From positions 1-52,631 of the forward strand of contig JACPDF010000025.1 of NCBI GenBank assembly GCA_016184145.1: 52,631 bases of DNA. Reading direction: 5' to 3'. Both the position numbers and the translations under genes were made by a program. This document shows, piece by piece, positions 1 through 4,769 of this stretch (positions are counted from its first letter, which is position 1; each line of letters opens with the position of its first letter). This DNA comes from Candidatus Woesearchaeota archaeon. GTDB lineage: Archaea > Nanobdellota > Nanobdellia > Woesearchaeales > GW2011-AR4. The notes under the pieces are model-generated. The model made no database searches and had not been told where the DNA came from. It was given only the letters and a program-made list of their open reading frames with translations.

Positions 1-29
1 GGTGGATAAATAGTGGTGGAATTCGCTGA

Positions 30-99
30 GTCAAGAACCACCTTGATACTCATACTATACCAAATTCATGCCACCCGTCTTTGACGGGTGGTTCTTGAC
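30..99. repeat. Nested inverted repeats at the 3' end of the DUF262 gene
   Basis: A 13-bp inverted repeat (30-42 against 87-99, GTCAAGAACCACC and its complement) encloses a second perfect hairpin with 9-bp arms (71-79 and 83-91) and a TTT loop. The two structures share bases, so they are alternatives. The reading frame of the DUF262 gene runs through this DNA and picks up an arginine-rich tail before its stop. It may be a terminator or a cassette boundary. No matching copy was seen at the other end of the cassette near 4770. Confidence 0.6.
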
Positions 100-3044
100 G
101 AGTTTTGTGTCCATTTTTTAGACAGAAGCACTTTATTCATCCTCTCTAATGACCCAAGCCCCAAATTCCTAATCTCACTTTCAGGTTCGTTAGAATGAAA
201 ATAACTATTTCTGAGATTTAGTATATTCCTAAAATGGAAAGTAAAGTCTTCAGGTGTTCCCTTAAATGATTCTCCGAATACAGCCCTCCATTGACTCGTT
301 ATTATTTGCCTCAAATGTTCCAAATCTGTTTTTCGTAATAGTTTTTGTTCATCTTTATACTGATTTATATCAAATGTAGGGTTACTTTTAATCTCCTTTT
401 CTGTTCTTTCTTGCACTACTGCCTTTACATTATCTGGTATTACCTTCCACCAATTAGAACCGTATTTATTTTTCATATTATAATTAACAAAATCACGTAA
501 CTTTACCTCAAATTTATTGATAACATCCATTTCTGATTTATCAAATTGAACTTCAATGTCGCTCTTTGCACCAATAAGTTCTCCTATCTTTGACAATACC
601 AAATTTTCTCTTTCTTTGACAAAATTGACTAACTCATTATTGATTAAGAAACCATACGCCTTTTTATTAATAAAATGAGTTTCTAATATATCCAAAAATT
701 CATTTTCATTTTCCTTATATACTTCTTCAATAAAATCTTTAATATACTCTTTTGGCTCTTTATTACTCTTTCTAATATTGGTTTTCTTAGATAACCAAGC
801 CATATTCAGAACTGAATCTATATACTTGGAACTATCAGCATCATATTTCCTGCTTTTTGGAAAAATATGGTCTTTATCGTTTTCTCTTGCATTACCAAGC
901 ATTTTGCCTGTCTCAAAATCTTTTGAACCTTCCAAAGCCAACAAAGACATCACTCCCTTATACATTGCATTAGACTGAGTATTCAGATTTCTTAATCTTA
1001 AAACTTGCAAGTTAATTTTTGCTTGTTGCACTGATTTAGGTACTTTGGAATCATCGTCAAACCAATCTTTTAACTCTTTGAAGTCTGCTGTTAATCTACT
1101 ATCTACAGATGATGAATACGCATTAGTAAATACACTTGACCAATACCACATCTCAAGTTTTTTATTACATTCAAACTTATTGTGCCTTGAGTCTATCTCT
1201 CTAAGTAAAGAGGCAATTATAGGTATGACTGGGAGAAATGGCATTTCTTTCTCATCTTTAACACCAAATCCATCTTTTAAATTTTCTAATTTTTGAATGG
1301 CTAAATCTACATAATTTGAAAATTCTTCCCAATGTTCTTTAAATAATAAATCGGGATGTTTTTGATAAATATTCTCGTAGATATCTAATATATCCCTTCT
1401 TTTACAAGAACTTGCTGGGTGATAACATAACGATATTGCCTGAAAGATGTAAAGGCGTACTTTTTCAGATTTTTTAGCATACCTATCTATTGTTTTATAC
1501 TTTTCAACTGTGTAATCACCCCATAACTCTCTTAAGTTTATTTTATATTTGTATAATCTTGCTATTAATAAGTCAAATGTATCAAGTCGTTCTCCTCGTG
1601 TATTGATATTTTCAAATATGTCTGCAACTTGCTCAATGCTAAAGGATTTTGGTAATTGTATTATAGGAATTTCAAAACCATTTAATATGTGATTAAGTTT
1701 ATCATCTATTAGGTGTCTAATCTCTATAATTTTATTAGTATCATTAGATTTTGTTAATAAGAATTTTTCAAAGTCATTTAGCCATTTTCTATAATTTTCT
1801 AAATGATAAAAAGGAAATAATAATTGTTTATAAGTATCCTCAAAGGTATATCTTGTGTCTTTACATATAACTATATCTTTTAGTGGGTCGTTTTCAAAAA
1901 AAGCCCTAAGGTCTATGTAAAAATATTGATGACGTTCTCTAAATTTAGTATCATCCCATTCATCTTTATCTCTCCAGATTTCAAGATTTGGTGCTTTAAT
2001 AGAATAGTATAATGATGTAATTCTCTGTTGTCCATCTAAAATAATGGAGTCGGGTCTTTCAATTTTGTCATCAAATCCTTTGATACTTATTACATCCACA
2101 GGCGGTTCTTTCTCTAAATCCCATAGTAAGAAAGAACCTACAAAATAATCATTAAATATAGATTCAAGAAACTCTCTTATATCCTCCTTATCCCAATCAA
2201 AATATCTCTGAAAGTGAGGTAAAGTCCAGTCTTTTTCAACTGATGTAATTATATCCCTAATCTTAATTCTTTCAGGGCTTTTTAATAAATGTGGTTGGTG
2301 TTTAATTGTCTCAGTATTGATAGAACTTATAAAGGAAGAAAAGTCAAGTTCTTCTATAATTTCTTGAACTTCTTCCTCTTCGTAAAGTTCTTTCTTTATT
2401 CTATCCTTTCCTTCAATTTTGTTCCAGATATGCCAAAGCAAACAATCAACTGTTATGAAATCTGGATTTTTAAATCCATTTTCTTTTAATTCTTCTTTAA
2501 ATAACGCTAAAACTTCTATACACTCAACATATTCAGAACCAGTCTTAAGCTGGTATTTATAATATTTTTTTGGCAACAAATCAATTTCTAAATAAGGTAA
2601 TGCAGTTTTAGGTTTATCGTTCCATAAGCAATATTTATCAGGAAATACAAAATGTAATATTTCGGAAATTGATGAAGTTCCAAAACCACTTACTTTCTCT
2701 CTAAAATTATCTAATCTGTTGACTATATTGTCTTTGCCATATAACAGATTATACAATTCCTCTTTTAGTACTGATAACCCATTTGGTCTTAAAAGCCTAT
2801 TATCAAAAAACCAGTCCTTATTTCCCCATAAATTACTTGCCCACAAATTTTTGTAGATTTCTCTAAAATCTTCTTCTGTAAGGGTTCTTATATTGTCTCT
2901 TGCTAATTTCTTACTAAAAAATAGATGATGTTCTTGATGAACTTTATAGTTCTCTTTACCTTCTTCAGTTTCCATCCATCGTTTATAGGATTCAATAAAA
3001 TCTCTTATTTTTGCTTTTTGCTCTTGTGTTAGTTTCATTTCCAT
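66..3044 (-). CDS. DUF262/DUF1524 (GmrSD-like) protein with HEPN-like C-terminus
   Basis: A 992-aa protein with three recognisable parts. Residues 1-230 resemble the N-terminal region of some McrB-like restriction proteins (FGTSSISEILHFVFPDKY near 121-138). Residues about 255-490 are a DUF262 ParB/Srx-fold domain: DGQQR at 337-341, the usual NTP-binding motif, and NTRGERL near 481. Residues about 690-770 carry the DUF1524 HNH-like motif DHIFPKS at 725. The last 150 residues are helical with RNSYFH at 945-950, matching the R-N-x3-H pattern of HEPN RNases. GmrSD-type enzymes cut modified phage DNA, so defence is inferred. The start overlaps the stop of the ASCH-like gene, indicating coupled translation. 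It is more AT-rich than neighbours; the arginine-rich tail comes from a hairpin at the gene end. The HEPN call rests mainly on one motif. Confidence 0.82.
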   Translation of the reverse strand: MEMKLTQEQKAKIRDFIESYKRWMETEEGKENYKVHQEHHLFFSKKLARDNIRTLTEEDFREIYKNLWASNLWGNKDWFFDNRLLRPNGLSVLKEELYNLLYGKDNIVNRLDNFREKVSGFGTSSISEILHFVFPDKYCLWNDKPKTALPYLEIDLLPKKYYKYQLKTGSEYVECIEVLALFKEELKENGFKNPDFITVDCLLWHIWNKIEGKDRIKKELYEEEEVQEIIEELDFSSFISSINTETIKHQPHLLKSPERIKIRDIITSVEKDWTLPHFQRYFDWDKEDIREFLESIFNDYFVGSFLLWDLEKEPPVDVISIKGFDDKIERPDSIILDGQQRITSLYYSIKAPNLEIWRDKDEWDDTKFRERHQYFYIDLRAFFENDPLKDIVICKDTRYTFEDTYKQLLFPFYHLENYRKWLNDFEKFLLTKSNDTNKIIEIRHLIDDKLNHILNGFEIPIIQLPKSFSIEQVADIFENINTRGERLDTFDLLIARLYKYKINLRELWGDYTVEKYKTIDRYAKKSEKVRLYIFQAISLCYHPASSCKRRDILDIYENIYQKHPDLLFKEHWEEFSNYVDLAIQKLENLKDGFGVKDEKEMPFLPVIPIIASLLREIDSRHNKFECNKKLEMWYWSSVFTNAYSSSVDSRLTADFKELKDWFDDDSKVPKSVQQAKINLQVLRLRNLNTQSNAMYKGVMSLLALEGSKDFETGKMLGNARENDKDHIFPKSRKYDADSSKYIDSVLNMAWLSKKTNIRKSNKEPKEYIKDFIEEVYKENENEFLDILETHFINKKAYGFLINNELVNFVKERENLVLSKIGELIGAKSDIEVQFDKSEMDVINKFEVKLRDFVNYNMKNKYGSNWWKVIPDNVKAVVQERTEKEIKSNPTFDINQYKDEQKLLRKTDLEHLRQIITSQWRAVFGESFKGTPEDFTFHFRNILNLRNSYFHSNEPESEIRNLGLGSLERMNKVLLSKKWTQNSSRTTRQRRVA

Positions 3045-3490
3045 CCTTCTAAAATGGATGTTATCTGTCCTTTATTAACATACCTAAAGTCTTGTGGTGG
3101 ATTTAAATTATCACTTCTAAGGATTTCTAAAGGTATCTTTTGCTCAAATTCAAAAACTTTTCTTATTTCAAATGCAATTCCTTTATTTTTTCCCTTATAA
3201 TAACTTGATATAAATGTCCTTGTAACTTTAGCCTTTTTTGAATATTGCCTTAATCCGTTTATTGATTTTATAATAACTCTTTTAATTTCAAAAACTCCAA
3301 CTATCTTTTTTGTTGGAGATGACTCATAAACAAGAACATATTTACTCAAATATTTTGGTAATCTCTTACGCAGTTCTATAGTTTTTTCCATACTAAATAT
3401 TTTTTTAGAATATTCTGGCTTTATTGATAACATTATTAAAAATTCATTAATGGACATATCCCTCAAAATTTTAATAAATCTATTTACCAT
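3035..3490 (-). CDS. ASCH/PUA-like domain protein
   Basis: A 151-aa protein. From residue 20 the pattern MLSIKPEYSKKIF...TIELRKRLP, then YVLVYESSPTKKIVGVFEI, fits the ASCH fold, a PUA-like beta barrel that binds RNA or modified nucleic acid. The first 19 residues may be a real extension, because the ATG at 3490 overlaps the last codons and stop of the upstream GNAT gene; the alternative start is Met20 at 3433. Its own stop overlaps the start of the DUF262 gene, so it is the middle gene of a coupled three-gene unit. The family is recognised by pattern. A role as nucleic-acid sensor for the nuclease next door is inferred. Confidence 0.7.
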   Translation of the reverse strand: MVNRFIKILRDMSINEFLIMLSIKPEYSKKIFSMEKTIELRKRLPKYLSKYVLVYESSPTKKIVGVFEIKRVIIKSINGLRQYSKKAKVTRTFISSYYKGKNKGIAFEIRKVFEFEQKIPLEILRSDNLNPPQDFRYVNKGQITSILEGWK

Positions 3491-4769
3491 CTTTTACACC
3501 TCCAAGAACTCTTATTTTGTCTAAATCTTCTTGCAGTAAATACATAGTGCTTTGAGGATTATAATTTTGAATTAATTTATCAGTTATAATTTTATAAGGA
3601 ATTTTTTTCTTATACCTTCTAAATTTACCTATCAACAAAGTTAATACATTATTATCTTTATCAGCAAAACTTTTAACTTCCTTAAGATTTAGCAATCCTT
3701 TAGTGTCATATTTTTCAAAAACAATTTCTGGGTCATCTATAATAACTTCTTTAATTTTACCTTCTCCTATGATGGCTTGTGTAGGTTCTGTTTCATAAAA
3801 AACAAAAATATTCCCTCTTTTTACATCTTTTACATTGGGAAACTTATAAAATACTTTATCAACTCTCAGGGATTTTTTATCTGCAATTAAAAGAGTCTGT
3901 GTTCCATCATATAGAAGTCTATCACTATATTTCTTATCTACTGATGATAAAATTCCTGCAACTTTTTGTCTTTTTAAAGTCAAAGGATAAAACATTGTTT
4001 CTATGTCAAAACCATCAATAATTTTTATATTAGGTTTTTTATTTTTAAGTTCAAAATCATAATAAGAAACTATTATAATGCTTGAGCAATCATTACTTCT
4101 TGCATTTTCTTCTATATTAGAAATGATAATATCTGGCTTAGGTTCTAAGTCTGTAATAATTTTAACATATATCTTATAGGATTCCTTGATTGCTATTAAT
4201 TTTTGTATTATTAAGTATTTATGTCCTCTATCTATTATCTTATATCCTCTTAATTTGAATAAATAATTTGCAACAAAGTCTTCAAAATCTTTTTCGGTAA
4301 GTTCTTTATAAACTTGTAACTTGCTCATATAATATTCAGATGTATTGTCCCTATAATTTAATGGAAATACTCCATCAAGAGCAAATCCATATTCGGTAAA
4401 ATAACCCAATAATTCATTTACTTCCTCTTCTGCAAATGTTACAAAAATTTTCTTAAAACCTTTTTCTATCCATTTATCTATAACAAAATTTAATAAATAA
4501 GAACCAATACCAGAACCTCTCATTTCTTCAGCGAGATAAAAAGTTCTTAATTTAATCGTGGAATAATTACCCTTTTCTATTCCAGATATAGCAACACCGC
4601 CTATTTGATTGTTAAAAACAACTACAATACAATCATCTTCATTATTTTCAATTCTTGGTAGTTCTTTATCTAACCAATTTTGAATATCTGGATAATATTT
4701 TTTTAGATTTGAGACTAATTTAATTATCTCATTTTTGTCTTCATTTTTATATTTTCTAAATTCTAACAT
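3480..4769 (-). CDS. GNAT acetyltransferase fused to a PUA/ASCH-like domain
   Basis: A 429-aa protein. Residues 1-150 are a GNAT N-acetyltransferase with the acetyl-CoA loop RGSGIGSYLL at 84-93. Residues 155-250 (FEDFVANYLFKLRGYKI and PDIIISNIEE) loosely resemble a restriction-endonuclease-like or Mrr-type fold, but no complete catalytic set is visible. Residues about 280-429 (TLLIADKKSLRVDKVFY, RGNIFVFYE, IGEGKIKEVI) look like a PUA/ASCH/EVE-type domain. The substrate is unknown; tRNA or protein acetylation is possible. It is first in the overlapping cassette with the ASCH-like and DUF262 genes. No clear promoter was found in the 49-bp gap behind the antiporter gene. Confidence 0.7.
   Translation of the reverse strand: MLEFRKYKNEDKNEIIKLVSNLKKYYPDIQNWLDKELPRIENNEDDCIVVVFNNQIGGVAISGIEKGNYSTIKLRTFYLAEEMRGSGIGSYLLNFVIDKWIEKGFKKIFVTFAEEEVNELLGYFTEYGFALDGVFPLNYRDNTSEYYMSKLQVYKELTEKDFEDFVANYLFKLRGYKIIDRGHKYLIIQKLIAIKESYKIYVKIITDLEPKPDIIISNIEENARSNDCSSIIIVSYYDFELKNKKPNIKIIDGFDIETMFYPLTLKRQKVAGILSSVDKKYSDRLLYDGTQTLLIADKKSLRVDKVFYKFPNVKDVKRGNIFVFYETEPTQAIIGEGKIKEVIIDDPEIVFEKYDTKGLLNLKEVKSFADKDNNVLTLLIGKFRRYKKKIPYKIITDKLIQNYNPQSTMYLLQEDLDKIRVLGGVKDGK

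Follow-up and report, generated by a model that had tools for sequence, protein, structure and literature searches.

The three genes at the start of the 52,631-bp stretch of DNA analysed here (the window, which is the whole contig C21 of a 1.0-Mb, 97% complete archaeal genome) are best read as a defence cassette of two known modules, each present as a variant, that were joined once, and not a conserved new system. One module is a GNAT/ASCH gene pair (g1 and g2), and the other is a large GmrSD-type protein (g3) with extra domains at both ends. The host of the block is a symbiont-type archaeon, probably one of the Woesearchaeota-type DPANN archaea to judge by its kinship in the searches. We favour, with a probability of roughly 0.5, an antiviral cassette of two modules that a Woesearchaeota-type archaeon acquired horizontally. 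An initial reading of the sequence without database searches (hereafter the sequence-only reading) had proposed an uncharacterised defence or abortive-infection system. A role in defence is still the best reading, but the parts have been published (PMC7641849, PMC3710099) and the triple is not conserved.

All three genes, and the features described within them, lie on the minus strand. The first, g1 (3480..4769, 429 aa), encodes a divergent PIN-less GNAT-EVE protein of the PDC-M11A/GevT type, g2 (3035..3490, 151 aa) an ASCH protein of the PDC-M11B/GevA type, and g3 (66..3044, 992 aa) an OGG-like N-terminal domain, a GmrSD core (DUF262-DUF1524) and a HEPN. The overlaps, put at about 10 bp by the sequence-only reading, are 11 bp for g1/g2 and 10 bp for g2/g3, and the latter would become a 4-bp ATGA if g3 started at its second ATG (3038). 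For g2, a perfect Shine-Dalgarno sequence within g1, GGAGGTG (3497..3503, read from 3503 to 3497), favours the upstream start. That the three proteins are made together had been concluded from the overlaps. However, 7 of the 31 other same-strand neighbour pairs in the window also overlap, and such junctions, being ordinary in this genome, therefore suggest co-translation of g1-g3 and no more; as proof of a special coupling they were rejected. The block is AT-rich compared with its neighbours, as had been noted, with a GC content of 28.1% (0.281) versus 38.4% (0.384) in the rest of the window, where no other 4.7-kb stretch falls below 0.353.

The protein encoded by g1 opens with a GNAT domain (aa 1-140, 4350-4769; Pfam 2.7e-8, above cut-off), continues with an inserted alpha-beta domain of ~130 aa (aa 141-275, 3945-4349) and ends in an ASCH/PUA-like domain (aa 276-429) with weak ASCH/DUF365-type matches. 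It matches the PADLOC model PDC-M11A (9e-20), and a profile-profile comparison of g1 and its relative with the (PIN)-GNAT-EVE family aligns along the length (96.4%, E 1.2e-9), with a gap at the extra ~130 aa. The AlphaFold model of g1 matched many GNAT structures and also ZmASCH (5guq/5y6b, target-normalised TM 0.77-0.81), in agreement with the sequence match at the C-terminus. Since g1 begins directly with GNAT and has no N-terminal PIN, the PIN-less GNAT-EVE subclass is the only possible one. The acetyl-CoA motif of the GNAT, RGSGIG in g1, is WGCSFG in the relative from genome G432, so acetylation by g1 may be non-essential. The inserted domain had no match in a Pfam search, and no catalytic nuclease motif was seen in it by eye; its predicted a-b-b-b-a-b order suggests, at low confidence, a degenerate Mrr/PD-(D/E)XK-like fold.

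The partner protein, g2, matches Pfam ASCH (2e-5, above cut-off), PADLOC PDC-M11B (1.7e-30) and the profile of ZmASCH (1.7e-28), and is 34% identical to the annotated GevA antitoxin of coliphage PhiR47_2. ZmASCH, from Zymomonas, cuts single-stranded RNA via Tyr47, Lys53 and Ser128 (PMC5615036); in alignments with it, g2 keeps the Tyr (Y55) and the Lys (K61), and Asp replaces the Ser. The PDC-M11 models match the PIN-GNAT-EVE proteins found in our analysis over nearly their full length, and thus correspond to (PIN)-GNAT-EVE proteins with overlapping ASCH genes, as reported by Bell 2020 (PMC7641849). Pairs of PIN-GNAT-EVE and ASCH genes are present in the window's own family and order (L046-L050), and GNAT/ASCH pairs whose ASCH gene overlaps its partner occur in G432, on Pseudomonas and Rahnella plasmids and in coliphage PhiR47_2, whose genes overlap like g1/g2 and were called GevT toxin and GevA antitoxin by the depositors. 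Like these (PIN)-GNAT-EVE/ASCH pairs (PDC-M11, GevTA), g1-g2 joins a GNAT and a PUA-superfamily domain in one chain to an overlapping ASCH gene; unlike them, g1 lacks the PIN, carries the ~130-aa insert and has a C-terminal domain that scores as ASCH/DUF365 and not as EVE. We assign g1 and g2 to the known GNAT-EVE + ASCH pair as a divergent, PIN-less member, and they are probably a toxin-antitoxin couple, with a putative polarity taken from the PhiR47_2 annotation.

ASCH genes were also seen in other settings. On the archaeal provirus psiM100 of Methanothermobacter (L101 1539-3384), ORFD and ORF5, to which the record assigns no function, resemble a GNAT-EVE-type gene and an ASCH gene that overlap; the comparison covered ORF5. 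At another locus (L053 3206-6268), a 1020-aa protein with carboxypeptidase-regulatory-like domains adjoins an ASCH gene.

The central part of g3 is of GmrSD type. Its DUF262 (GmrSD_N; aa 263-497, 1554..2258) is matched by Pfam at 5e-29 and contains DGQQR (residues 337-341, 2022-2036). The DUF1524/HNH domain (aa 718-773, 726..893) scores below cut-off in Pfam (GmrSD_C 0.014, HNH_4 0.023; 15.7 bits for DUF1524 versus a cut-off of 23), and its DHIFP motif (residues 725-729, 858-872) is kept in relatives and two-domain GmrSD proteins align over the full length of the core. BrxU (7p9k, E 1.1e-10) and DndI (9jfl) were the only significant fold matches of the g3 model, and SspE was matched weakly. 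The C-terminal Swt1-like HEPN (aa 845-952, 189..512) is supported by Pfam HEPN_Swt1 (9.3e-8; 32.8 bits versus a curated cut-off of 27.5), by the presence of the Rx4-6H motif, here RNSYFH (195-212), and by PADLOC PDC-M34B (1.4e-9). RNSYFH corresponds to RNALAH and RNQLAH in Halobacterium and Persicobacter homologues, which themselves match HEPN_Swt1 weakly, and the tail alone as a query matched a plasmid protein annotated as Swt1-family HEPN. AlphaFold renders the region all-helical with pLDDT below 50, so the fold assignment rests on sequence, and a search of the PDB with the HEPN alignment returned nothing credible. By its sequence, we regard the predicted HEPN as real. That the motif is a chance find was rejected on the Pfam match and the conservation; shuffled tails give R[NDH]xxxH in 3.7%.

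These results bear out the domains that the sequence-only reading had named, namely DUF262 (DGQQR), DUF1524 (DHIFPKS), a HEPN-like C-terminal motif, and PUA/ASCH-like folds in the first two proteins. They also add the inserted middle domain of g1 and the OGG-like N-terminal domain of g3, both of which it had missed.

The DUF262-HNH-HEPN fusion is not new, since Table 1 of Anantharaman 2013 (PMC3710099) lists it with VNG7073 of Halobacterium as an example. Proteins of the VNG7073 type share with g3 a ParB-like DUF262, an HNH and an active Swt1-like HEPN in one chain, whereas an OGG-like domain is not mentioned in PMC3710099. A Halobacterium NRC-1 plasmid protein of 465 aa, likely the VNG7073 gene product, aligns to aa 569-973 of g3 but covers only the C-terminal half and has no GNAT/ASCH neighbours. 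The DUF262-DUF1524 enzymes BrxU and SspE are known from experiment to sense modifications, hydrolyse NTPs, and cut or nick DNA (PMC10952713). As in GmrSD, BrxU, SspE and DndI, g3 has the DUF262 DGQQR and the DUF1524 DHxxP in one chain; it differs in adding a reader-like N-terminal and a HEPN C-terminal domain. The anti-phage system PD-T4-2 combines DUF262 with HEPN (reviewed in PMC10952713) but lacks DUF1524, whereas g3 is a single chain with the HNH and the OGG-like domain.

The N-terminal domain of g3 (aa 1-220, 2385..3044) is the part for which the GmrSD literature that we searched held no report. Residues 1-220 recur at 24-49% identity on other proteins: a DPANN protein of 390 aa with a type II restriction-enzyme match (L061), similar proteins on plasmids of Monoglobus, Methanothermobacter and Halomarina, and a Salinibacter DUF3578 (McrB-like) protein, which begins with this region and is followed by a nuclease gene. 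Pfam OGG is matched by four of six members of this family (best 3.1e-6), and the family profile finds the OGG2-type 8-oxoguanine glycosylase 9o00-9o02 with modest E-values (0.0013-0.021), in an alignment that covers the helix-hairpin-helix region. As the g3 sequence has no direct Pfam match, its OGG assignment is indirect, through relatives and profile. Two positions distinguish the three deposited OGG2-type sequences, of which the first form carries both Lys and Asp, another Ser in place of the Lys and the third Asn in place of the Asp. Those Lys and Asp are the catalytic residues of the OGG family. In all six members of the N-domain family, Asn stands in for the Asp and Ser, Ala or Gly for the Lys (in g3, Ser replaces the Lys and Asn the Asp), and the family profile scores both deposited variants better than the Lys/Asp form. 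Compared with the OGG2-type glycosylases, to which the profile aligns it over the helix-hairpin-helix region, the family lacks the catalytic Lys and Asp and is fused to restriction or McrB-like domains. Given the probable relatedness to OGG and the lack of both residues in every member, the domain is probably a glycosylase fold turned modified-base reader, a role that would suit a modification-dependent enzyme. GmrSD proteins with extra domains, such as DUF4268, DUF4357 and DNA_binding_1, are known. Our literature search found no description of the present assembly, with a dead DNA-repair enzyme as its probable sensor.

The opposite end of g3 also varies. The nearest relatives of its core are about 41-52% identical, come from records titled Woesearchaeota, Pacearchaeota, Micrarchaeota, Thaumarchaeota, Buchananbacteria and Atribacteria, and keep the GmrSD motifs but differ from g3 at their C-termini. 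Most of these relatives (archaeal and candidate-phylum DUF262 proteins, L037-L043) have in common a C-terminal SSIHDRFI segment, which we read as phospholipase-D-like, and an N-terminal domain without a Pfam match. The Micrarchaeota relative (L039 7659-10280) instead strings together, in this order, Mrr_N, the GmrSD core and Schlafen AlbA_2 in one chain. The GmrSD core therefore appears as a chassis on which the predicted C-terminal effector (HEPN, PLD-like or AlbA) is swapped among relatives. We tentatively extend this to a wider reading, in which the dead OGG-type fold would be an undescribed class of modified-base reader common to restriction endonucleases, McrB-like proteins and g3, archaeal GmrSD would be a general chassis for interchangeable N-terminal readers and C-terminal effectors, and the chassis would here be coupled to a GevTA-like pair; taken as a whole, this is more a conjecture than a conclusion.

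How did the two modules come to lie together? In the window, g1 is preceded by an antiporter gene; in the relatives G413, G432 and G203, the gene after that antiporter encodes ~470 aa, and g1-g3 are all missing from the space between the two. The source genome has its ~470-aa gene from C15:215 onwards, and C15:1-65 matches window positions 1-65 exactly as their reverse complement, so contigs C21 and C15 meet in a short repeat. The three genes thus sit together in one site that is empty in relatives, and were probably gained horizontally as a block. We searched 371 genomes of the phylum and 353 of the order (overlapping sets). Full-length g1 was found in only one other genome, G432, where it is 48% identical and keeps its overlapping ASCH partner, and no g3 was detected anywhere in that genome (83% complete). 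Relatives of g3 also occur without GNAT/ASCH neighbours, and the ASCH family of g2, matched by the same search in 16 of the 371 phylum genomes, is absent from eleven genomes with g3 relatives or the g3 N-domain. No relative of g1 was found by tblastn in plasmids, none of g1 (as single sequence or alignment) or g3 in IMG/VR, and none of g1 in 287 genomes of another phylum, a search that had no positive control. The three-gene unit is a single sighting, and the co-occurrence of all three genes in other genomes, proposed as a check by the sequence-only reading, fails: the triple is not conserved.

Are the modules, then, merely side by side? They could be functionally unconnected, g3 working alone as a type IV enzyme and g1-g2 being a toxin-antitoxin pair in its own right. 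The g1-g2 pair without g3 in G432, the occurrence of g3 relatives without the ASCH and without GNAT/ASCH neighbours, and the prevalence of gene overlaps in the source genome are all consistent with this. We nevertheless think it unlikely, though the most arguable of the alternatives, as the genes share a strand, tight overlaps, a low GC content and joint absence from the site in relatives, and islands with both kinds of module exist in the same family. One such island, in G339 (C71, L097 7597-18326), contains a DUF262 protein, a type I R-M set (assigned as type I by reading the sequences), a RadC-like gene, PIN-GNAT-EVE and ASCH, and indicates that the two kinds of module keep company.

A closer functional dependence can also be imagined, in which g1-g2 is a base-modification module, with the GNAT installing an acetyl mark that the ASCH reads or removes, and g3 is the effector that depends on the mark, in the way of SspE and DndI in phosphorothioate systems. 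Acetylation of a DNA base has been suggested as the activity of GNAT-EVE proteins (Iyer et al., cited in PMC7641849), and the fold matches of g3 to BrxU, DndI and, weakly, SspE are to sensors of DNA modifications. However, phylogenetically each module can do without the other, the annotation of the related coliphage pair is toxin and antitoxin, and no base mark is known, which makes this alternative improbable.

The repeat in which the contigs meet occupies window positions 1..101 (no strand assigned), with 13-bp inverted repeats at 30-42 and 87-99 and a copy at C1:2941-3088. The element is about 70-150 bp long, with the 13-bp inverted ends GTCAAGAACCACC and an internal GCCACCCGTC/GACGGGTGGC hairpin. 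It resembles a non-autonomous mobile element, and the assembly breaks at it between C21 and C15. The last approximately 13 codons and the stop of g3 come from it, and it replaced the original g3 C-terminus beyond the HEPN. That the locus is decaying, its cassette rendered non-functional by this insertion at the g3 end, is very improbable: the final codons of g3 do come from the element, and no catalytic nuclease motif is visible in the insert of g1, but the three reading frames run unbroken over 4.7 kb, g3 has every key motif and the HEPN stops before the element, as in homologues.

For the two-module antiviral cassette that we favour, the sequence supplies the predicted domains and motifs, the loss of the OGG catalytic residues, the joint presence at a site that is empty in relatives, the operon-like packing and the effector swapping. 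We infer putative substrates, an order of events, which of g1 and g2 is toxin and which antitoxin, and any contact, physical or functional, that the modules may make. In this scheme, g1 would be the toxin, contacting nucleic acid through its ASCH domain and acetylating a target (possibly tRNA or a base) through its GNAT, and the co-translated ASCH protein g2 would restrain it. The large protein g3 would act as a single-chain, modification-sensing restriction enzyme of the GmrSD/BrxU/SspE type: the dead OGG-like domain and DUF262 would read a modified base in incoming DNA, and NTP hydrolysis by DUF262 would license the HNH (DUF1524) to cut that DNA. Should DNA cleavage fail, the HEPN may cut RNA as a growth-arrest back-up. 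The GevTA-type pair may add a second line of defence or stabilise the cassette.

The dead OGG-type domain offers a concrete candidate for a modified-base reader of a new kind, and its natural Ser and Asn are the very residues of the two deposited OGG variants. In this one locus, archaeal defence appears built from interchangeable parts, with a core whose sensor and kill domains are swapped and a linked toxin-antitoxin pair.
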